23,429 nt of DNA, taken from a virus. The stretch lies in the IMG/VR virus record IMGVR_UViG_3300030328_001643, positions 1-23,429 of that record; one strand, given 5' to 3'. The notes under the pieces are model-generated. The model did not search any database, had not been told where the DNA came from, and saw nothing but the letters and a program-made list of their open reading frames with translations. Of this stretch, positions 7,593 through 18,659 are shown piece after piece. The translations under genes and the position numbers were made by a program. Position 1 is the first letter of the stretch. Every line of letters begins with the position of its first letter.

Positions 7593-8168
7593 ATGAAATA
7601 TTTAGATGTAACTACATATCACGACACTCAAATAGTAAGCACTGCTGACTTAAAAGAACATCTAAGAATAACTTTCAGTGATGATGATACCTACATCGCT
7701 AGTTTAGAAAAAGCGGCTGTTCGTAGACTCGAGGAGTATACTAATCTGTTGTTATTAAACTCTACTGTTAGACAATATGGGTTTGAGTTTTCAGACTTAG
7801 AAGTGTTATTTAAAGGTCCATACTATCCTGAAGGAATAACAAAAGTATACTCATATATAGGTGGATCGTGGGTATTAATAAGTGCTTCTGACATAGAATT
7901 TATAACGAAAAGCCTCCCAATGAGAGTATATAAAATGCCTGATGCTACCCTGTCTACACCTGATGATGTAAAACAAAAATACTATTGTGAGTATCAACTA
8001 GGCTATGAAACCGCAGATGAAATACCTGATCCATTAATACAAGCGATCAAAATAATGGTAGCGGATATGTATGAAAATAGACAAAGCGTGATCGTAGGTA
8101 GACAAGTGTCAGAAATACCAAAAACTGCGGAATATTTAATGATGCCATACAAGATACAAACACTATGA
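7593..8168 (+). CDS. Head-tail connector protein, HK97 gp6-like
   Basis: The 191-aa product starts with a helix-rich segment, STADLKEHLRI then DDTYIASLEKAAVRRLEEYTN. This is the signature of the gp6-like connector family (Phage_connect_1), which forms a ring beneath the portal. A middle beta-rich region is followed by EIPDPLIQAIKIMVADMYENRQ, the conserved C-terminal helix. Position after the capsid gene and before the head closure gene supports the call. The stop overlaps the next start as ATGA. Confidence 0.85.
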   Translation: MKYLDVTTYHDTQIVSTADLKEHLRITFSDDDTYIASLEKAAVRRLEEYTNLLLLNSTVRQYGFEFSDLEVLFKGPYYPEGITKVYSYIGGSWVLISASDIEFITKSLPMRVYKMPDATLSTPDDVKQKYYCEYQLGYETADEIPDPLIQAIKIMVADMYENRQSVIVGRQVSEIPKTAEYLMMPYKIQTL

Positions 8169-8533
8169 TAGGAGTAGGTCAACTAGATACTAAAATACAG
8201 GTGCAATCACCATCCACCACTGCTAACCCCCAATATGGTGGTATACAGGATACGGAATATGATACACCAAGTGGAACTCCAGACAGTGTATGGGCATATA
8301 TGATATGGAAAAGTGGTAGAGAAAAAGAAGAAGCCGATCAAATGACTGGAGAAACAATAGTCGAGTTTTATATAAGATGGGAATCATATAAAGAAAAGAT
8401 CCAACCTAACTGGAGGATAAAATATGATGACACAGCAGGAACATCACAATATTATTATATAGAAAAGATCCAGCATATAGATGGAAGGCATAAGATCACT
8501 AAACTAACAGCAACACAAAAAGATAATAACTAA
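8165..8533 (+). CDS. Head closure / head-tail adaptor protein
   Basis: The 122-aa product has the opening GQLDTKIQVQSP, a beta-rich core with DSVWAYMIWKSGREKEEADQ, and TIVEFYIRWE near the middle. This matches the SPP1 gp16/Phage_H_T_join type of head-tail joining protein: a small beta barrel with typical wording around 'W-A' and 'E...A'. Such proteins seal the capsid exit after packaging. It is coupled on both sides, by ATGA upstream and TAATG downstream, within the connector operon. Confidence 0.82.
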   Translation: MIGVGQLDTKIQVQSPSTTANPQYGGIQDTEYDTPSGTPDSVWAYMIWKSGREKEEADQMTGETIVEFYIRWESYKEKIQPNWRIKYDDTAGTSQYYYIEKIQHIDGRHKITKLTATQKDNN

Positions 8534-9009
8534 TGGAGTTAAACGCAAGAAAAGTAATCGGAATGCGAGAGCTACAAAGAGCAATGCGTAAAATTCCATA
8601 TGAGGTAAAAAAGTCGAAATTTATGATGGCCGTATTCAGACAAGCGGCAAAGCCAATCATCGCTGCAGCAAGAACTGAACTATCAGGATATAATGAATAT
8701 AGTCAAACGGGACAATTAAGAAAAAGTATAAAAGCATTTTCAACAAGAGCGAGCCGAAGGCTTCCAGCTTTATACGTAGGGCCAAAAGCAACAGGAGGAA
8801 AAGCGAAAAAGAACAAACAAAGAGGAGGAGGATACTATGGTGCAATGTTAGAATATGGAACAGCAACCGCCTCAGCTCATCCTTTTATGCGACCAGCGTG
8901 GGAAAAATCACAAGGATCGGCAGGAGAAATATTAGTAAATGGTGCTGCAGCCGTAGTGCAAAAGATATTAAATAGAGAAGCAAAAGGATTAAAAAGATTA
9001 TATAAATAA
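8533..9009 (+). CDS. Tail-completion protein, HK97 gp10-like
   Basis: The 158-aa basic product has the gp10-like layout. An N-terminal helix contains MRELQRAMRKIP, then a conserved AAKPIIAAARTEL helix, TGQLRKSIKAF, and a C-terminal segment GAMLEYGTATASAHPFMRPAWE. The 'EYGT...HPFMRPA' pattern is diagnostic of this family (neck or tail completion). A glycine/lysine-rich loop (GGKAKKNKQRGGG) interrupts the domain around residue 95. Start and stop overlap the neighbours as TAATG. Confidence 0.9.
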   Translation: MELNARKVIGMRELQRAMRKIPYEVKKSKFMMAVFRQAAKPIIAAARTELSGYNEYSQTGQLRKSIKAFSTRASRRLPALYVGPKATGGKAKKNKQRGGGYYGAMLEYGTATASAHPFMRPAWEKSQGSAGEILVNGAAAVVQKILNREAKGLKRLYK

Positions 9010-10211
9010 TGAGAACTGGAGCAATAATATATCCTATACTATCATCATATAACACACTAACTAATATGGTGGCTGCTAGTAAAATCTTTGCTGTTCGTGC
9101 TTTACAAGGCACGCAAGGACCATACATAGTATATAGAGAAATAGCTTCTACACCAACGAATACCAATGGAGATAGCTTAGACACTAGTGCTGATCCACGA
9201 ATTAGACAAAGAAGCATACTGGATGTATATACTGTGCAAATTTCAGTATTTGCAGATACCTATCTAGATGTAGAAGAAATAGCAATAGCAGTAAGACAAG
9301 CACTAGATAGAGAATGGGGTTCAGCGACAACTTTATATGCAGATGAAATATCGCTAGACTCCTGCGTTTATCAAAGCTGTGTGGATGACTATGATGATGA
9401 CTATGGAGAAAGAGGTATATATATCAAACATTTAGATTTTAGTCTGCGAGTAAATAGAATATTTATAAGTAATACATTTTTAAATGAAAAATCTATACAT
9501 TTTGATGGAGTAGATGATAAATGCGAAGGAATAGATAGCTCATTATATACACCTACTACTGATGGCTTCTCAATATCGGTATGGGTTAAAATGGACACTA
9601 CAGGTGCTAGTGAATGGATAGCAGGTAAAAATGCTCAATGGGGGTCTGGTGCGTATCATTATGAATGGGACTTGTTAAAAAGATATAATGACTCTATAAG
9701 ATTTCGAACATTTTTCGGTGATAGTTTAACTAATAATGTGGAATTCGATAGCGTACAAACTATAGGCACTGACTGGACTCATATCGTGGTATCATACGAT
9801 GGAAGTCAAACAGCTGCAGGATATACAATGTGGATTAATAATACTGAATTAACTCAAGCTAACACACTAGCTGAAGTGACATTAAATGGTTCATACGGAT
9901 CAATATCCGATACCATATGTAAATTTATGGTGGGCTTTTCAGGATCAGATTCAATGTCAGGAAATGTGGATGAGGTAACTATATGGAGTGAAGTATTATC
10001 ATCTACTAAAGTTTCTAATCTTTATAATAATGGAAAAGCAGGATCACCCTTAGTAGCACCTACTGTAAGTGATAATTTAGTTGGATATTGGAGAATGGGA
10101 GATGGAGCTACATATCCAAATATACCTGATAATAGCCCTCAATATAGCAATCAAATAGTAATGACAAATATGACATCAGGAGATATAGAATCAGATGTCC
10201 CACCATCATAA
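9009..10211 (+). CDS. Tail terminator-like protein fused to a LamG/concanavalin A-like domain
   Basis: Residues 1-150 resemble tail terminator proteins of the DUF3168 type: IIYPILSSYNTLTNMV, then GPYIVYREI, then YTVQISVFADTYLDVEEIAIAVRQ. They sit at the expected place after the gp10-like gene. Residues about 155-400 form a LamG-type beta sandwich: IHFDGVDD, TDGFSISVWVKMD, WTHIVVSYDG, GNVDEVTIWSEVLSS and LVGYWRMGDG. The usual terminator is about 130-150 aa, so the lectin-like domain is an addition. By inference it is displayed at the neck or upper tail and may bind glycans of the host surface or environment. The join is in frame with no sign of sequencing error. Confidence 0.87.
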   Translation: MRTGAIIYPILSSYNTLTNMVAASKIFAVRALQGTQGPYIVYREIASTPTNTNGDSLDTSADPRIRQRSILDVYTVQISVFADTYLDVEEIAIAVRQALDREWGSATTLYADEISLDSCVYQSCVDDYDDDYGERGIYIKHLDFSLRVNRIFISNTFLNEKSIHFDGVDDKCEGIDSSLYTPTTDGFSISVWVKMDTTGASEWIAGKNAQWGSGAYHYEWDLLKRYNDSIRFRTFFGDSLTNNVEFDSVQTIGTDWTHIVVSYDGSQTAAGYTMWINNTELTQANTLAEVTLNGSYGSISDTICKFMVGFSGSDSMSGNVDEVTIWSEVLSSTKVSNLYNNGKAGSPLVAPTVSDNLVGYWRMGDGATYPNIPDNSPQYSNQIVMTNMTSGDIESDVPPS

Positions 10212-10214
10212 GAT

Positions 10215-10442
10215 ATGAATACAAGATACTGCATAATAGAAGCTACAAATATAGATAATATAGATTTTTCAAAAGTTATAGAATCTAAAGATACAATAAG
10301 ATACAAACTAGATGGATCAGAATTTATAGTTAAATACATAGGAACTAAACCTGAATGTTTAAATGAATATACCGACTTAAGTCACACTGATATATTAAAT
10401 ATAGTTAAGAACCCAGCACTCGGCTGGACAAATCAAATATAA
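10215..10442 (+). CDS. Small conserved protein of the tail region (75 aa)
   Basis: The product begins MNTRYCIIEATNIDNIDFSKV, followed by a beta-rich stretch with YKLDGSEFIVKYIG and a C-terminal LSHTDILNIVKNPALGW. It starts 4 nt after the tail-terminator gene and ends just before the next start, so it belongs to the connector/tail operon. The I-D-F-S...LDGS pattern seems familiar from Bacteroidota phages, but I cannot assign a function. A small adaptor or chaperone role is only a guess from position. Confidence 0.65.
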   Translation: MNTRYCIIEATNIDNIDFSKVIESKDTIRYKLDGSEFIVKYIGTKPECLNEYTDLSHTDILNIVKNPALGWTNQI

Positions 10443-10443
10443 A

Positions 10444-10632
10444 ATGGAAGATACTAAATTAATAAAAGATTATACTAGCGAACACGGAAGGATATATCCA
10501 TCAGGAAGCTATATAGCGTGTTGTAGAGAAACATATAATATATTAGTTGATCAAGGAATAGCTGAAAGACATCCAGGAGATAAAGCTAAGAAACAACCTA
10601 AAAAAGCAAAAACAAATGGCAGCAATAAGTAG
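10444..10632 (+). CDS. Small protein with basic tail (62 aa)
   Basis: The N-terminal 45 residues contain YTSEHGRIYPSGSYIACCRETYNILVDQG, with a G-x-I-Y-P-x-G pattern seen in small phage head or tail proteins. The C-terminus is rich in Lys, Pro and Asn (KAKKQPKKAK). The stop overlaps the next gene by 17 nt in another frame. I do not recognise a function. Its place before two beta-rich structural candidates suggests a minor virion component or assembly helper. Confidence 0.6.
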   Translation: MEDTKLIKDYTSEHGRIYPSGSYIACCRETYNILVDQGIAERHPGDKAKKQPKKAKTNGSNK

Positions 10633-10969
10633 TCAAAGGATAAGTGAAACAGGACTAACTCCTACGTTAACTGTTCCTGAGTCATCATCTAATACTTTCA
10701 CAAATAGTGGTAATGAATTTATAATGATCCAAAACAACGATGGATCAACAGCTAATACAGTAACTGTAACTGCTACTACTACTGATGTGGATCTACCCTT
10801 ATATGGAGATTTAACTAAGAGCAATGCCTCGCTTTCAGTAGCGGCAGAAACTACGGCATTTATTGGCCCTTTCCCTTTAGGAGCATATGCAGGAACAGAT
10901 AACGCTGTCACCTTTACATTAACCTCAACATCAAATGTAAAAGTGGCAATTTTAACATTAGAAGATTAA
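10616..10969 (+). CDS. Probable small beta-sandwich virion protein (117 aa)
   Basis: The product is rich in Thr, Ser, Val and Asn and appears entirely beta-stranded: TVTVTATTTDVDLPLYG, SLSVAAETTAFIGPFPLGAY and DNAVTFTLTSTSNVKVAILTL. The 'FIGPFP...Y...VTFT...VKVA' layout occurs in small phage structural proteins encoded between connector and tail-tube genes, which would fit a decoration or surface protein. This assignment is from pattern and position only. The 3' end overlaps the tail-tube gene as TAATG. Confidence 0.6.
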   Translation: MAAISSQRISETGLTPTLTVPESSSNTFTNSGNEFIMIQNNDGSTANTVTVTATTTDVDLPLYGDLTKSNASLSVAAETTAFIGPFPLGAYAGTDNAVTFTLTSTSNVKVAILTLED

Positions 10970-11418
10970 TGGCAAACGGAATAATAAATGGGAATGAGTA
11001 CTATGTAAATATTGCTGGTAAGTATATCATCGGTGGTATTACTGCTAATTTATCTTTTAAAACAGCAACTAAAGATCTAACTTGTAGAGAAACTTATAAC
11101 TGGAAATTAATATGCCCATCTTCGAGAAGCTGGAGTGTAGAATTTGAAGGAAAGTTTATGTTTGATTTTTTAAATTCTTCTATATCAGCATCTCAAAGGC
11201 CCTCAACCTTTGTATTAGAAAAGGCATTCTTTGCTCAAGGATCAACATATAGTAGAGATGTATACCTAGAATTTTATAGCCTCTCAACTGGAAACAGATG
11301 CTGGTATGGATATGGATACTTAAAATCAGCAAGTATAGATACACCTAACGAGGATAGCTCAACTGTTAAATTAAGTTTGATAGGAAAAGGAGCTCCAACA
11401 ATGTATCAAGTAACATAA
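10969..11418 (+). CDS. Tail tube protein, first paralogue
   Basis: The 149-aa product is beta-rich and aligns by eye with the next gene. Both begin with a short Gly/Ile-Asn-Gly motif (NGIINGNEYYV here) and contain a W-S/E-V-E/S-x-EG strand (SWSVEFEGKFMF). Both end with an almost identical DTPNEDSST stretch before a G-x-GA end. Tail-tube (TP901-1-like) subunits have this size and place. It has more aromatic and Cys residues than its paralogue. It may be a minor tube or tube-initiator subunit. It is coupled to the previous gene by TAATG. Confidence 0.75.
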   Translation: MANGIINGNEYYVNIAGKYIIGGITANLSFKTATKDLTCRETYNWKLICPSSRSWSVEFEGKFMFDFLNSSISASQRPSTFVLEKAFFAQGSTYSRDVYLEFYSLSTGNRCWYGYGYLKSASIDTPNEDSSTVKLSLIGKGAPTMYQVT

Positions 11419-11494: not shown

Positions 11495-11926
11495 ATGGCA
11501 ACAGATGGAGTAATTAATGGCACAAAATTTGCTGTATACGCTGGGACAACTAAGGTAGCGTATGCAACATCAGCCTCAATAACAATGAATCACAATCTTA
11601 GAGATACGAGTACAAAAGACTCGGCTGGATGGCGTGATCAATTAGAAGGACAACGTGACTGGGAAGTTTCAGTAGAGGGTATGTTAATATTTACAAACCT
11701 AGATGGAACGGCAATCACAGGACTAACAATGAATGAGTTATATACAAGCTATATAGCAACTAGGGACTCTTTCACTTTAAAATTCTCAACTGAAGTATCA
11801 GGAGATATCAAATGGAGTGGAACTGCGTTCTTGACAAGTTTATCTGCAGACACACCAAATGAGGACTCTAGTACTTGGAGTGGATCATTTAGTGGTTCGG
11901 GAGCATTAGTTCAAGCAGCAGTATAA
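11495..11926 (+). CDS. Major tail tube protein, second paralogue
   Basis: The 143-aa product has the classic small tail-tube form: DGVINGTKFAVYAG, a SITMNHNLRDTSTKDSAGW segment, DWEVSVEGML and DTPNEDSSTWSGSFSGSGAL at the end. The 'R-D-x-x-x-K-D-x-x-G-W' pattern is typical of TP901-1-type major tail proteins. It has its own 76-nt A-rich leader and is followed by terminator-like hairpins, consistent with high, separately tuned expression. It shares the DTPNEDSST motif with the preceding gene, pointing to an old tandem duplication. Confidence 0.85.
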   Translation: MATDGVINGTKFAVYAGTTKVAYATSASITMNHNLRDTSTKDSAGWRDQLEGQRDWEVSVEGMLIFTNLDGTAITGLTMNELYTSYIATRDSFTLKFSTEVSGDIKWSGTAFLTSLSADTPNEDSSTWSGSFSGSGALVQAAV

Positions 11927-12369: not shown

Positions 12370-12710
12370 TAACCTTCGATAGTTTAGAACGAATAGCACT
12401 AGGAGAACTAAATATGAGATTGGATGATTTTTATAATATGACACCTCGGAACTTTGCTAATGCTCAATTAGGATATAAGGCTATGTATGATCAAACCCAA
12501 CAAGCAGAATGGGAGCGATCAAGATGGATGGCGTGTGTGATCATTAATCCTCATCTAAAACGAGCAATAGATCCTAAAAAAATTACTCGCTTTCCTTGGG
12601 AGATAAAAAAGAGCTCTGTAGATTTTAATCAAGAACTCATAGATAAAATAAGAAAAGAGTCAGAATATGATGATAAAGTGCAAGAATCAATAAATAAAGA
12701 CAATGCCTAA
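12342..12710 (+). CDS. Tail assembly chaperone, -1 frame extension ('T' part of the fusion)
   Basis: This is the downstream frame reached by the -1 shift. It adds 122 residues to the first 109 of the chaperone, giving a fusion of 231 aa. It opens with acidic text (KDPKEKEEI), continues with LERIALGELNMRLDDFYNMTPRNFANA, and includes QAEWERSRWMACVIINPHLKR and a charged C-terminus. The first ATG of this frame (12414) is inside the open region, has no good leader, and would leave the preceding open codons unexplained. Fusion products of this type recruit tail-tube subunits to the tape measure. The end overlaps the tape measure start by 8 nt. Confidence 0.82.
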   Translation, partial: KDPKEKEEIITFDSLERIALGELNMRLDDFYNMTPRNFANAQLGYKAMYDQTQQAEWERSRWMACVIINPHLKRAIDPKKITRFPWEIKKSSVDFNQELIDKIRKESEYDDKVQESINKDNA

Positions 12711-15339
12711 AAAAGCCCTCGCATCCTTAAATGTAGTTATTAATGCAGTAACATCTCCTCTTTTTAGAGGACTAGCAAAAGCACAAAGACGTCTCGCAGT
12801 ATTCGGATCTAAAATGAAAGCTGTAGGAAGAAGTATCACTACAAGTTTTGCTCTCCCTTTTGCAGCGATTGGTGCTGCAGGAGCTAAAATGGCAATAGAC
12901 TTTGAAAAGAATATGACCAAGATAAATACCTTGGTGGGTATTTCAGCGAAGGAAGTCAATGAAATGAGTAAAAGTGTAATGAGCCTTTCAGGACAAACGG
13001 CTCAAGCACCAGCCGATCTAGCTGATGGTTTATTCTTTTTAACTTCTGCAGGACTCCGTGGTGCAAATGCAATGTCAACCTTAGAAGCAGTTTCTAAAGG
13101 AGTAGCAATAGGACTTGGAGAACAAACTGATCTAGCGAAAGTCGCTGCTGCAGCTCAGAACGCATACGGACAAGAAACGATCACTGCTGCCGAAGCATTA
13201 GATGTATTTGGAACTGCAGTAAAAGAGGGTATGTTTGAAGCCTCCGACTTAGCGGAAGTATTAGGAACGCAACTCGGTATGGCTTCTAGCCTTGGAATTT
13301 CATTCCAGGAAGCCTCAGCTTTTATAGCTACATACACTAAAACAACAGGAGATGCTAAAGCAGCCTCTACAAGTTTCGGGGGAGTAATGATGTCGCTAGC
13401 AAAAACAACTCCACAAATGGAGGAAGCACTAAACCGTGTGGGAATGACAGGGGACTCGGTGCGAGCCAGCCTAGGCGAAAAAGGATTAAGACAAACCCTT
13501 ATAGATATAAAATCTGCCTTTGAAGAAAACAATGTGCCTTTAACTAAAATGTTTAGTAAATCTCAAGCATTAAAAGGGGTGCTTGGTGTATTAGGAAACC
13601 AAACAGAAGTATATGGAGATGTTCTAGATGGAATGGGACAATCTGCAGGAATGGTAGAAAAAGGATTCGGAACGTTAGAAAAGACTGCAGGGTTTAAAAT
13701 GCAAAAAGCATTCACTAATCTAAAGAATGCAGCAATGGAACTTGGTGCTATACTGATGCCGCTTTTTACAACAATAGTCAATGGTGCAGTTGCAATTGGA
13801 AAAGGCTTCACAGAATTAGATGGTGGAACTAAAAAATTAATAATAGGTGCTGCAGCTCTTCTAGCTTTTAGTGGTCCTTTGATGACAATAGGAGGTACAA
13901 TCCTGTCAGTTATGAGTGCAATCATATCTCCTATAGGATTAGTTGTTGCAGCTGTGGGTGCTTTGATTGCTGTGATAGTAAATAACTGGTCGACAGTAAA
14001 AACTATCTTTGTTAACTTTATTAATTATTTTATTACTTTATATAACGAATCAATATTAGTAAGAGCAGTTATACAAGGTTTTATTATGAATTTTAAAAAC
14101 GTCTTAGCTGCTGGAGTTTTCTTAGGAAAAAATCTAGTTACTGTATTTACTGCTATGAAAAACGCTTTTATGGACATCATAGGAGGTATAGGAGATATCC
14201 TACTAGGAATTTTAACATTGGATGCTTCTAAAATAAAAGAAGGATTTAAAAAAAGCCTAGGAGGTGTTAGCGATGCTGTAAAAGAATCGTTTGATGGGGT
14301 GGCTGAAAATGCTAAAGAGTTGGGAGAGAAAGTAGCTCAAAACTTTGGAGATGCAGTAGAAAATACAGTTAATGGTAAACCTTTACAGATGATAACTGAG
14401 GATGATGTACAAAATACAGTAGACAATGTAGGGGGGTGGTTTATGGATAAGTTAGGAGCGGTAAAAGATAAACTAAAAGGATTTATGGGTGGATCAATAC
14501 TATCTGTGCCTGAAGGACCAAGTGCAACAACAACCACTCCAAGTACAACATCTGATGATGGATCAAAAAACCTTAGTAAAACACTAAACAAGAAGAAAAC
14601 CTTAATACAACAATATCTAGATTGGGCTAAAAATGAATATGCTGATTTTTCAGAAAAGGTAAGTCAAGTATGGGGAGCTATAAGTCAAGTAGCAGGTGCA
14701 GTTTTAAATGGTATTAGTGCAAAGTTTGCTGCCGAAGCTGAGAAACAAAATACAATATTAGACAATCAACAAACTAAAGAACAAGAAGCATTTGATAACC
14801 AAAAAGAACTAGCAATAGCTAAAATTGAAAACTCTAAAATGAATGAGGAGCAAAAAGAAAAAGCACTAACTGATATAAAAGAAAGATACGAGATCAAACA
14901 AGAAACACTAGATAAAAAGTTTGATGATAAAAGAAAAGCACTACAAAAAAAACAAGCCGAAAGACAAAAAGCATTAAATATAGCAAACGCAATAATGGGT
15001 ACAGCCCAAGCTATAGTGCAGGCTTTAACAGTGCCTCCACCAGCAGGATTAGTATTAGCAGGAGTCGTGGGTGCTTTAGGTGCTGCTCAGATCGCTGCCA
15101 TAGCTTCAACCCCAATACCACTAGCTAAGGGGGGACTAGCATACGGACCAGTAAATGCAATAGTAGGAGATAATCCTGGAGCGGCAAATGATCCAGAAGT
15201 TATCGCTCCTTTATCTTCACTAAAACAAATGCTAGGAGGAGAAATGAATCTAACTGTAAATGTGGGAGGTGTATTAAAAGGAGATGACATATACCTAGCA
15301 AATAATATAGCGGATGAACAAAGAGTAAGATATATATAA
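12703..15339 (+). CDS. Tape measure protein
   Basis: The 878-aa product sets tail length and lies inside the tail tube. The N-terminal 330 residues match the TP901-type tape measure domain, with FAAIGAAGAKMAIDFEKNM and the repeated ALDVFGTAV, TQLGMASSLGISFQEA and TTGDAKAASTSFGG text. Hydrophobic segments lie around residues 376-429 (LIIGAAALLAFSG, LVVAAVGALIAVIV), usual for proteins that enter the host membrane. A charged coiled coil spans about 680-760. The end is hydrophobic and Gly/Ala-rich with AKGGLAYGPVNAIVGD, typical of the family. By the rule of about 1.5 angstrom per residue the tail would be near 130 nm; this is an estimate. Confidence 0.95.
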   Translation: MPKKALASLNVVINAVTSPLFRGLAKAQRRLAVFGSKMKAVGRSITTSFALPFAAIGAAGAKMAIDFEKNMTKINTLVGISAKEVNEMSKSVMSLSGQTAQAPADLADGLFFLTSAGLRGANAMSTLEAVSKGVAIGLGEQTDLAKVAAAAQNAYGQETITAAEALDVFGTAVKEGMFEASDLAEVLGTQLGMASSLGISFQEASAFIATYTKTTGDAKAASTSFGGVMMSLAKTTPQMEEALNRVGMTGDSVRASLGEKGLRQTLIDIKSAFEENNVPLTKMFSKSQALKGVLGVLGNQTEVYGDVLDGMGQSAGMVEKGFGTLEKTAGFKMQKAFTNLKNAAMELGAILMPLFTTIVNGAVAIGKGFTELDGGTKKLIIGAAALLAFSGPLMTIGGTILSVMSAIISPIGLVVAAVGALIAVIVNNWSTVKTIFVNFINYFITLYNESILVRAVIQGFIMNFKNVLAAGVFLGKNLVTVFTAMKNAFMDIIGGIGDILLGILTLDASKIKEGFKKSLGGVSDAVKESFDGVAENAKELGEKVAQNFGDAVENTVNGKPLQMITEDDVQNTVDNVGGWFMDKLGAVKDKLKGFMGGSILSVPEGPSATTTTPSTTSDDGSKNLSKTLNKKKTLIQQYLDWAKNEYADFSEKVSQVWGAISQVAGAVLNGISAKFAAEAEKQNTILDNQQTKEQEAFDNQKELAIAKIENSKMNEEQKEKALTDIKERYEIKQETLDKKFDDKRKALQKKQAERQKALNIANAIMGTAQAIVQALTVPPPAGLVLAGVVGALGAAQIAAIASTPIPLAKGGLAYGPVNAIVGDNPGAANDPEVIAPLSSLKQMLGGEMNLTVNVGGVLKGDDIYLANNIADEQRVRYI

Positions 15340-18300
15340 TGGCTTATCAAAGAACATATTTTTTTAATTTTGTAGATGAAGGTGGTATAACCTATCGCTT
15401 AGAAATGTATGATGGTGCAAGCCCACCAGCCAGCCAGCAGGATAGAGAAGGGAGGCTAGGAAAAGATGGATGTAAAATAAAATGGGGATCGGATGGGAGT
15501 GGAATGTTTGCACCCTTAAAGCCGTCTACTTTAAGTTTTGAATTTACGGTATGGGATTATTGGAGTGCATCCTATATCCAGTTATTAAGAACAGCACGAC
15601 AAGAGCGAGATGTATATGTAGGTCTTTATAGAGAAACGGTAGTAGGTAGTAATAGCCCTCAATACCATCCATTATGGGGTGGGTTTTTATTAATGGATTT
15701 ATCCGATGATCCTGATATGGCAATGCCCTATACAATAACTATAAGAGCTATAGATGGAATCGCCTCCTTGAAATATATAGATTTTGTACCACAAGCAACC
15801 ACCCAAAATGCGAATCACGAATACTCAAGAGCGGATACGTATATGGCGGATACAAATAACTCTCAGCCTACCTGGAGAACCTTTAAACTCTTAATACATT
15901 TAGCATTAAGAGAGTGTGGGCCATTTGATGCAAGTGTCGGATCAACCCAAACTGAAGCAACTTTTAAGACTGCTGTACAATGGTTTAATGGAGATCATCC
16001 TAGCACAAGTATTGATCCAATGACTCATACTAGAGCCAATCCTTCTGTCTTTTATGAAAGGATAGATATGGGAGAAGATAATGAGCCGAAATGGAAGGCT
16101 TCATCTTGCTATGATGTATTAAAAGCAATTTGTAAAGCGTGGGGAATGAGATTAGTATATTATAAAGGATCTTATTATTTTATACAAATATCGTTATTTC
16201 ATAAGACTGGAGCAGGAAATCAAGCATCACCAGTAGATATTCCAAACTTTACATATAATATAAGTAATGCTGTACTTGTAGGTTCATCAGATAGTATAGA
16301 AAGGTGGTGGCAAAAATATCAGTTAACATTAGATAATACTCTAACCTCGCCTGAATGTAGAAATTTAAAAATGGCAGGAGGATCATATAATGTATTGCCT
16401 GCATTAAAAAAAGTTACTATTGACTTTTTAAATGTTGACAATAATAATAGATTCACAACCTTCCCACCTATACCATTGACAAGCAGTATAGGTGCTCCAA
16501 CAAGTAATGGTAGTTATTATGAATTTACTTCTATGGGAAATTTTACATTTGATGGTGTAAATGATCAGGACTTCTTCCAAAGGATATATCTAGTATTTAA
16601 CAACACATCAGGATTTGCTGGGCAAATTGGGATGAGATTTACATTATGTGCGAGGATAGCTGGAACAGGATCAAACACGGTAAATGAAACTCCCATCAAT
16701 AATGGCTGGACTCACTTTTTATTTTACAATACTACTACGGAAGTATTAGAGTGGTATGGTCCTCTTGGCCTCGCTTTTTTAGGTTTTGAAATAGATATAT
16801 GGTTTCCTATTCCAGCAGGAGCAAGTACTAAAGAATTGACTGGGGAAATTATTAATCAATACTATTCATATCCACCATTCCCTGCAGGAACTGGAACTAC
16901 TAACTATCCATTATTTGCGGCTGGAGATTACGAGGTAGGCTACTATGTTAATTCAAATGCCTCAACAACCTCTGGAGGAATAGTGATGGGTAATTGGTGG
17001 GGAACAGGACAATTTGGATATGGATCAGGAGCAAACTCAACTAATCCGTGGGATGCAGGAGTCTCCTATACAGATCCAGCTCAAACGGCTGGAGTAGGTG
17101 CGTCAGATTTTGCACCAATTATAAATGGAGCAATAGGATCAAATATGACTACTACCTCACTGACTCAATCAGGAGATGATACAGCCGAGATAAAGATAGA
17201 TGATGTGTTATTCGGAGATACAGGAAACAATGCATCAGAAGGATGTCTACAAGTTTATGATGGATCAACCTGGAATGCTTCAGACTTTGCAGGAAACTGG
17301 GGAGAGCAAACACTCACAGGTGGAAATTCCTTCTCTCAACAATTAGCAACAGATATCATCGATACTCAATCAGAAAATATCCTAAAGTTTAATGTAACCA
17401 CTACACTACAACCTCAAGAAAGCGTATACTATAATGATGGCTATGCTGATAGGCCGCAATTTGCTGCTCCAACTTCAACGTTTAAAACTCCAGCTTTTAC
17501 GGCTGCAGCTGCAACTGAGAAAAGATGGCTAATGCATACAGGCGAATGGAATGTAATGAAACAACAATGGAAGTGGGTATTATATGAGATTGAAAGATTT
17601 AATAAACCTACCACTACTACTACGAGTAGAGTGGGAGGACAAAACTCAGGAAATGTCGGCTTGCCAGGAGCAGGAGTGCCTACCACTAATAATAGTGCGA
17701 GAATGGGTAATCCTGCAGCAGGGAACTCAAGAGCAATAGCACAGTTACAAAGACAACAAAGTGAACCAATCGCTACAGTAAGTACAACTCAAGCTATTAG
17801 TCGGACTATTGTAGAAGGGTATGAATATAAACAAACTATCACCAGTATAGCAGTAAGAGAAATGCCTGAAGCACTATTAAAAACAGGAGATAAAATATTA
17901 TTATATACATCAACTACAAAAAAATATGGAGATCCTGGTGCAACAGAACCCACAGATCCAATTTTAAGAAATCATAGTATAGAGTTTGAAGTGAGTGCTG
18001 ATCAAGCTGCAGATGCAACATCGATAAGCGTAACATCCCAAGTCATATATCAAGACATTATAGCAGGAGATAAAATATCATTTAGCCCTAAAGATTTGAT
18101 CACTCAATATCAAAATAAAACAAGAGGTAGTATAGGAGGAATGGAAGTAACTGCTACGAGCATAGATGGAGCAAGAAGTGTAGGTAGAAATGTTATTAGT
18201 TTTAGAGTAGAAGGGGATGGTTTAAGTAGTGGATCATACTACGTACTAAATGGAGAAGATAGTACTAGGAGCGGTAGATTTCAACAAATCAATACTAATG

Positions 18301-18659
18301 CTCCTACAAGTATAGGTACTCAAAGATCCTTTAAATCTATGAAATTTATAGCTGATGGAGCATACACAATCGAAAGCGGTAAAGCGGTAGTAAGTGGAGA
18401 TTCAGGGTGGAGTGTAAATCTCGATTTATATAAAGCATCAACAGTAGATGAATCAACATCGGTACAAGCAATGACTTTAATAGGAAGATATGTGCTAGCT
18501 TTAGATGGCGATGCTAAAACACAAGTAGTAACTATGGAAGCAGGAACATCAAGCTCTTTAGTGAGTGGAGATCTAATAGTGCCGCATATATATGCAGCAA
18601 CAGGAACTGGAACGTTTGACTTTAGAGGTGGTTTAACTTTCACATTAATAAGAGAATAA
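15339..18659 (+). CDS. Large tail-tip / baseplate protein (1106 aa)
   Basis: This gene starts as TAATG with the tape measure and is the only large gene left in the tail block. The N-terminal 150 residues (FFNFVDEGGITYRLEMYDG, AIDGIASLKYIDFVP) are beta-rich like distal-tail/hub proteins of Bacteroidota phages. The middle is rich in Gly, Asn, Thr and aromatics, with long beta stretches. A Ser/Gly/Asn-rich linker near residues 765-810 leads to a C-terminal beta sandwich ending GGLTFTLIRE, resembling receptor-contacting tail domains. No separate fibre gene is seen, so this protein may combine hub, tip and receptor binding. The exact family is not recognised. Confidence 0.78.
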   Translation: MAYQRTYFFNFVDEGGITYRLEMYDGASPPASQQDREGRLGKDGCKIKWGSDGSGMFAPLKPSTLSFEFTVWDYWSASYIQLLRTARQERDVYVGLYRETVVGSNSPQYHPLWGGFLLMDLSDDPDMAMPYTITIRAIDGIASLKYIDFVPQATTQNANHEYSRADTYMADTNNSQPTWRTFKLLIHLALRECGPFDASVGSTQTEATFKTAVQWFNGDHPSTSIDPMTHTRANPSVFYERIDMGEDNEPKWKASSCYDVLKAICKAWGMRLVYYKGSYYFIQISLFHKTGAGNQASPVDIPNFTYNISNAVLVGSSDSIERWWQKYQLTLDNTLTSPECRNLKMAGGSYNVLPALKKVTIDFLNVDNNNRFTTFPPIPLTSSIGAPTSNGSYYEFTSMGNFTFDGVNDQDFFQRIYLVFNNTSGFAGQIGMRFTLCARIAGTGSNTVNETPINNGWTHFLFYNTTTEVLEWYGPLGLAFLGFEIDIWFPIPAGASTKELTGEIINQYYSYPPFPAGTGTTNYPLFAAGDYEVGYYVNSNASTTSGGIVMGNWWGTGQFGYGSGANSTNPWDAGVSYTDPAQTAGVGASDFAPIINGAIGSNMTTTSLTQSGDDTAEIKIDDVLFGDTGNNASEGCLQVYDGSTWNASDFAGNWGEQTLTGGNSFSQQLATDIIDTQSENILKFNVTTTLQPQESVYYNDGYADRPQFAAPTSTFKTPAFTAAAATEKRWLMHTGEWNVMKQQWKWVLYEIERFNKPTTTTTSRVGGQNSGNVGLPGAGVPTTNNSARMGNPAAGNSRAIAQLQRQQSEPIATVSTTQAISRTIVEGYEYKQTITSIAVREMPEALLKTGDKILLYTSTTKKYGDPGATEPTDPILRNHSIEFEVSADQAADATSISVTSQVIYQDIIAGDKISFSPKDLITQYQNKTRGSIGGMEVTATSIDGARSVGRNVISFRVEGDGLSSGSYYVLNGEDSTRSGRFQQINTNAPTSIGTQRSFKSMKFIADGAYTIESGKAVVSGDSGWSVNLDLYKASTVDESTSVQAMTLIGRYVLALDGDAKTQVVTMEAGTSSSLVSGDLIVPHIYAATGTGTFDFRGGLTFTLIRE

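Follow-up and report, generated by a model that had tools for sequence, protein, structure and literature searches.

The window, by which we mean the whole stretch of 23,429 bases analysed here, comes from an IMG/VR record of that length and is a fragment of a tailed-phage genome. It starts with genes for a methyltransferase, terminase, portal, protease and major capsid protein, followed by the head-tail adaptor and further neck genes (Table 1). The gene under study is an uninterrupted ORF (9009-10211, plus strand) that codes for 400 amino acids, in which a tail-terminator domain is joined to a laminin G-like (LamG) domain. Downstream of it are small ORFs, the first of which is termed here the partner, then two tail tube paralogues, the tape measure gene (at 12703) and genes for a long tail protein and an M15 peptidase. 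The terminator-LamG gene is located between neck/head-completion genes and tail tube genes, the position expected for a siphophage tail terminator.

Table 1 Coordinates of the terminator-LamG gene, its domains and neighbouring head and tail genes in the window.
Feature	Coordinates	Strand	Evidence
Head-tail adaptor	7593..8168	+	Pfam Phage_connect_1, PHROG_40
Head closure / head completion protein	8165..8533	+	Pfam Phage_HCP, PHROG_25
Neck1 / tail-completion protein, adjoins terminator on its 5' side	8533..9009	+	PHROG_5, E 2e-14
Tail-terminator domain, residues 1-152	9009..9464	+	Pfam Tail_completion_gp17, PHROG_347, Foldseek, gene position
Linker/junction, residues 153-159	9465..9485	+	Poorly modelled, AlphaFold2 pLDDT < 50 at residues 152-157; bare relatives end here
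LamG / concanavalin-A-like beta-sandwich, residues 160-400	9486..10208	+	Pfam Laminin_G_3, Foldseek
Partner ORF, 75 aa, unnamed family	10215..10442	+	Coupling to phage LamG genes
Tail tube paralogue	10969-11418		PHROG_1407
Major tail tube protein	11495..11926	+	Pfam Phage_tail_2, PHROG_1407

Several other features of the region were recorded. Positions 1-1185 encode one protein that includes both ParB_N-like and N6/N4 DNA methylase domains and adjoins the terminase genes. An ORF at 10444-10632, encoding a lysine-rich protein of 62 aa, overlaps the gene at 10616-10969 by 17 bases; most relatives show the same 17-base overlap, an indication that translation of the two genes is coupled. The tandem pair of tail-tube-like genes, both PHROG_1407, is kept in several relatives and possibly provides two tube proteins in one tail. 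The 1106-aa protein encoded 3' of the tape measure gene (15339-18659) has no Pfam or PHROG match and, judged by its position, is likely a tail tip or central fibre protein.

A tail terminator and a LamG domain in one chain

The preliminary description of this DNA had proposed a tail-terminator-like protein of about 150 aa that is extended in frame by LamG. Pfam and PHROG_347 matches and the predicted folds bear out both halves of this proposal within the one intact 400-aa ORF. In the N-terminal half, Pfam PF11367 (Tail_completion_gp17) matches residues 10-131 with 35.7 bits (cut-off 24.5), and PHROG_347, named 'tail terminator', matches with an E value of 1.8e-31 in two stretches, the best of which covers residues 1-196. 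In the AlphaFold2 model of the whole chain (see below), this domain has a predicted fold of the HEEHEE type, consisting of a helix (4-13), two strands (39-49 and 71-82), a second helix (85-101) and two further strands (114-129 and 137-150); modelled alone, it reached a mean pLDDT of 79.5. Foldseek matched the N-terminal domain to the terminators of T5 (p142), lambda (gpU), GTA and the mycobacteriophages Bxb1 and Mycofy1, among others, with E values of about 1e-6 to 1e-4. Families, predicted folds, gene order and the existence of natural variants that lack the second domain (see below) support the identity of the protein as a siphophage tail terminator (residues 1-152) joined to LamG. Both the predicted fold and the gene position are those of the siphophage terminators lambda gpU, T5 p142, SPP1 gp17 and R4C gp18; however, these are single-domain proteins of about 130-160 aa, whereas here the C-terminus is extended by LamG, which adds about 240 aa. 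Tail terminators such as lambda gpU and T5 p142 are known as tube-capping hexamers (PMC11784142), and by analogy with the solved homologues the terminator-LamG protein would form a hexameric ring.

In the C-terminal half, Pfam PF13385 (Laminin_G_3) matches residues 183-335 with 41 bits (cut-off 27.6). The whole chain, modelled with AlphaFold2 from an alignment of 37 relatives (mean pLDDT 80.5), has an all-beta C-terminal part, and Foldseek searches with this model retrieved pentraxins and the Bacteroides ovatus carbohydrate-binding protein 4dqa, with E values of about 1e-9, as well as the LamG region of PAPP-A. The predicted structure supports a LamG/concanavalin-A-like sandwich at residues about 160-400. 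Since the whole-chain pTM is 0.60, the model does not fix the placement of the two domains relative to each other and leaves their mutual orientation open. A sequence-only search of the PDB with the full protein gave matches to antibodies and C-reactive protein with E values of 0.01-0.3, which were not considered meaningful. No in-frame ATG was found between codon 20 and the LamG start; a LamG product that starts separately at an internal ATG near the junction is therefore unlikely and was dropped.

The architecture is already present in databases, as PHROG_347, which both halves of the window protein match, spans terminator and LamG. This profile of 394 columns begins with the terminator, and LamG occupies roughly columns 128-394, as checked with L024 and L100; the latter matches the profile through LamG only, at 4.6e-41. 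Its name covers the tail terminator only, and mentions neither the lectin-like half nor the partner. A literature search that paired 'tail terminator' with 'LamG' found no report; subscription papers were mostly outside this search, and an earlier description is possible.

Relatives with none, one or two LamG domains

Terminator relatives were collected from IMG/VR. The combination pointed out in the preliminary description recurs widely among them: the LamG extension was found in 18 contigs of the window's own terminator clade and, at the same position, in about 40 contigs of a second clade with about 33% identical terminators (e.g. L053 and L055). The terminator-LamG fusion is common in aquatic phages, which the preliminary description did not note. 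Because it is present in independent contigs and in both clades, a sequencing or assembly chimera, or chance, is ruled out. One contig (L039, 5001-6959) encodes a terminator followed by two tandem, mutually divergent LamG domains in a protein of 652 aa. Thirteen contigs of the same clade encode a bare terminator, a protein that ends at residue 153-155, exactly at the junction, with the next conserved gene directly after it. The bare relatives include L015, L018, L019, L020, L011, L012, L034 and L040; LamG is wholly missing even from bare relatives with 64-71% identical terminators.

No LamG was found in eight bare-terminator virus records that were searched whole, most of which are fragments. 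A ninth bare-terminator record, a bacterial MAG of 2 Mb, has one LamG, located on a different contig. All three fused records included as positive controls gave a LamG match in the same whole-record search. In the phage isolate collection, no full-length relative of the terminator-LamG protein was found. A Flavobacteriales metagenome assembly includes a bare terminator (28% identity in the scan), encoded on a contig of 17.9 kb; this points to Bacteroidota as hosts.

Exchange and rapid evolution of the LamG half

The terminator tree places the window in a loose group with the bare relatives L015 and L018 and requires two to three changes between the fused and bare states. Several origins of the fusion are suggested, but not forced, by this tree alone, as a single fused clade was not rejected by the AU test (p 0.15). 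The LamG tree gave a clearer case. The LamG of L033 joins the non-terminator LamGs of L100, L103 and L108 with support of 100/100, while the terminator and partner of L033 are 75% and 87% identical, respectively, to those of L025, the closest. A foreign LamG next to an L025-like terminator and partner indicates that the LamG unit was replaced within an existing locus. Related LamG units also occur in other virion or tail-fibre-type proteins. LamG is an exchangeable module: close relatives carry none, one, two or one from another lineage.

Evolutionary rates of the two halves and of the partner were compared separately in 12 pairs of close relatives. Synonymous rates (dS) were broadly similar across the halves, and the dN of LamG was 4-15 times that of the terminator in most pairs. 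In 10 of the 12 pairs, the terminator had a dN/dS of 0.04-0.17 and LamG one of 0.19-0.47. The two exceptions were L035/L036, an almost identical pair in which LamG is not accelerated, and L085/L087, in which the dN/dS of LamG is 0.11. All pairs tested had dN/dS well under 1. Among 33 distinct sequences of the second clade, the terminator had an entropy of 0.22 bits per column and LamG one of 0.83 bits. The variable LamG columns are concentrated in a single region in the middle of the domain (roughly residues 170-225 of L055), which is enclosed by a conserved frame with the motifs FDGVDDY, GNIDE, YWKMGDG and TNM. Such fast and patchy change matches the pattern of a surface-exposed recognition domain under selection, a pattern that does not indicate the target recognised.

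A small partner gene follows LamG between carriers

Searches of Pfam, PHROGs and the PDB gave no convincing match for the partner ORF, which the preliminary description had not mentioned. Its coupling to LamG was found from both directions. Among loci selected for LamG that include enough sequence, the partner is the next gene in 65 of 69; in three of the other four it lies one gene further, and in one it is missing. Among loci selected for the partner by two narrow profile scans, 104 of 116 have LamG in the adjacent upstream ORF, as do 78 of 82 when near-copies are left out. Pfam Laminin_G_3 was found in the upstream ORF of 76 of these 82, and two of the remaining upstream ORFs look like divergent LamG by eye. 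One partner match, in L125, falls within an unrelated portal gene and was taken as chance. In seven loci of one phage group (L130-L132, L134-L136 and L143), a conserved gene encoding 133-135 aa (MPTIPSNEQFVG...) lies between LamG and the partner.

The partner accompanies LamG on varied carriers, namely terminators, fibre-type proteins and free LamG proteins. Two phage isolates also encode it: in Synechococcus phage S-SKS1 it lies, as SWZG_00004, 3' of a 960-aa multi-LamG protein, and in Flavobacterium phage immuto, as immuto35A_222, 3' of a protein with a C-terminus judged by eye to be LamG-like. Its presence 3' of non-terminator LamG genes rules out a terminator-specific gene. Binding to the conserved C-terminal TNM tail of LamG was not supported as a general rule, since the LamG proteins of S-SKS1 and immuto have the partner and lack the tail. 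The partner was absent from all nine bare-terminator records searched whole, which are mostly fragments, and from all 298 genomes searched for it in host chromosomes of the order of the Flavobacteriales MAG, a search run without a positive control.

In most pairs the partner is 90-97% identical, compared with 62-85% for LamG; in L024/L026 and L058/L066 the partner changes faster. The coupling tracks LamG and not its carrier, which speaks for a partner that helps or caps this domain, and the slow change of the partner against variable LamGs in most pairs favours a helper. The partner may thus be a helper dedicated to LamG, either a chaperone or a cap. A small gene directly 3' of an adhesin is also the arrangement of the Tfa/gp38 chaperones (Pam3 and Alteromonas V22; PMC9608196, PMC7289586), which, like the partner, follow the adhesin module between carriers. 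In contrast to this shared arrangement, no sequence likeness of the partner to Tfa/gp38 or other known chaperones was found by Pfam, PHROG or PDB searches, and a chaperone role is putative.

Discussion

Domain identities, predicted folds, gene order, the presence and absence of LamG, its exchange, its fast evolution and the coupling of the partner were established computationally. The best reading of the terminator-LamG locus, in which we have moderate confidence, is a variable adhesin mounted at the neck in six copies together with a dedicated small helper. The C-terminus of the terminator would be used as a display slot. Residues 1-152, presumably hexameric, would close the tail tube and attach it to the head, and a short linker would hold the LamG sandwich so that it points away from the tube, placing about six carbohydrate- or surface-binding copies at the neck. 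Through the LamG module, the phage would also adhere reversibly to the capsule of its host or to extracellular polysaccharide, ahead of the encounter between tail tip and receptor. The interpretation in the preliminary description, which already included a possible ring of six and adhesion ahead of receptor binding, has partial support. The downstream small gene would supply a helper reserved for LamG; most likely this is a chaperone for assembly, or a cap, that acts like the tail-fibre assembly proteins, whose genes lie directly 3' of fibre genes.

LamG and concanavalin-A-like folds can also bind proteins or be purely structural. Binding of polysaccharide or of the host surface by the LamG described here is made more likely by its fast, patchy evolution relative to the terminator half of the same chain, and by the related LamG units in other virion or tail-fibre-type proteins. 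Outward display of the LamG domain is plausible but not guaranteed, since work on T5 suggests that a tag at the C-terminus of p142 might fold inwards, into the lumen of the tube (PMC11784142). A comparable strategy is known from the Ig-like display domains (Fraser et al., reviewed in PMC9022992), which are exchangeable, dispensable beta-sandwiches on virion proteins and are presumed to aid adsorption. These domains are found on five classes of carrier (fibre, baseplate, tail tube, major capsid and Hoc) among which the terminator is not listed (PMC9022992); here, in contrast, the fold is LamG and not Ig, and the carrier is the terminator.

A more general proposal, which we put forward tentatively and rate at slightly below even chances, extends the neck-adhesin reading to aquatic, probably Bacteroidota, phages. 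Their terminators would mount an interchangeable, six-fold LamG ring at the neck; LamG and its cofactor of ~75 aa would constitute a mobile two-gene module for adhesion that occurs with terminators, proteins of the tail-fibre type and free LamG proteins; and the cofactor would represent a new class of LamG-specific chaperone or cap.

One alternative is a variant that departs from the neck-adhesin reading in the partner only. The partner would be a virion component that sits on LamG or extends it as a tip, cap or bridge, and the adhesin would be the LamG-partner complex. Coupling across carrier types is as compatible with a permanent complex as with a chaperone, and some proteins of the tail-fibre assembly group do remain on the tip, as in the case of gp38, which is the tail fibre tip (PMC12892980). 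However, the partner is slow while LamG is variable in most pairs, and one partner type is found with different LamG types (L033). Both observations fit a helper better than a variable tip, and we regard this variant as rather doubtful.

LamG could instead be a structural clamp or collar: packed on adjacent proteins of the neck or tail, it would stiffen the head-tail joint and take no part in host binding. A precedent is the terminator of Staphylococcus phage 812, which likewise combines a terminator core with an additional beta-sandwich domain, in this case one that locks the parts around it (PMC12886913), and the conserved LamG frame could form a packing surface. In phage 812, though, the tail is contractile and the sandwich locks the sheath (PMC12886913), whereas the LamG of the window protein is variable and the window has no sheath gene. 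Moreover, LamG is wholly missing from the bare relatives in spite of their similar terminators, evolves much faster than its own terminator and has been exchanged with non-terminator LamGs; a joint whose partners are fixed would not be expected to withstand such change. A clamp is therefore unlikely. Very improbable is a neutral or weakly useful passenger that was left by tail-gene recombination and is unused by the phage: the many close relatives that do without LamG indicate that it is dispensable for tail termination, but LamG is under purifying selection in all pairs tested, its frame is conserved across very divergent sequences, it has been retained in two terminator clades and it keeps its co-located partner gene.

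Domains that bind the host are usually sought on the tail tip, the fibres and capsid decorations. Surface binding would gain a new site, and a new stoichiometry, from a variable lectin-like domain carried by the tail-capping protein, and the natural variants with no, one, two or swapped LamG domains make the role of this domain testable. The LamG-plus-partner module is the part most worth following. The partner family is unannotated, yet it marks phage LamG genes almost perfectly and can thus serve as a finder for adhesion modules in unannotated phage genomes; the partner may also be required for the laboratory production of phage LamG domains.
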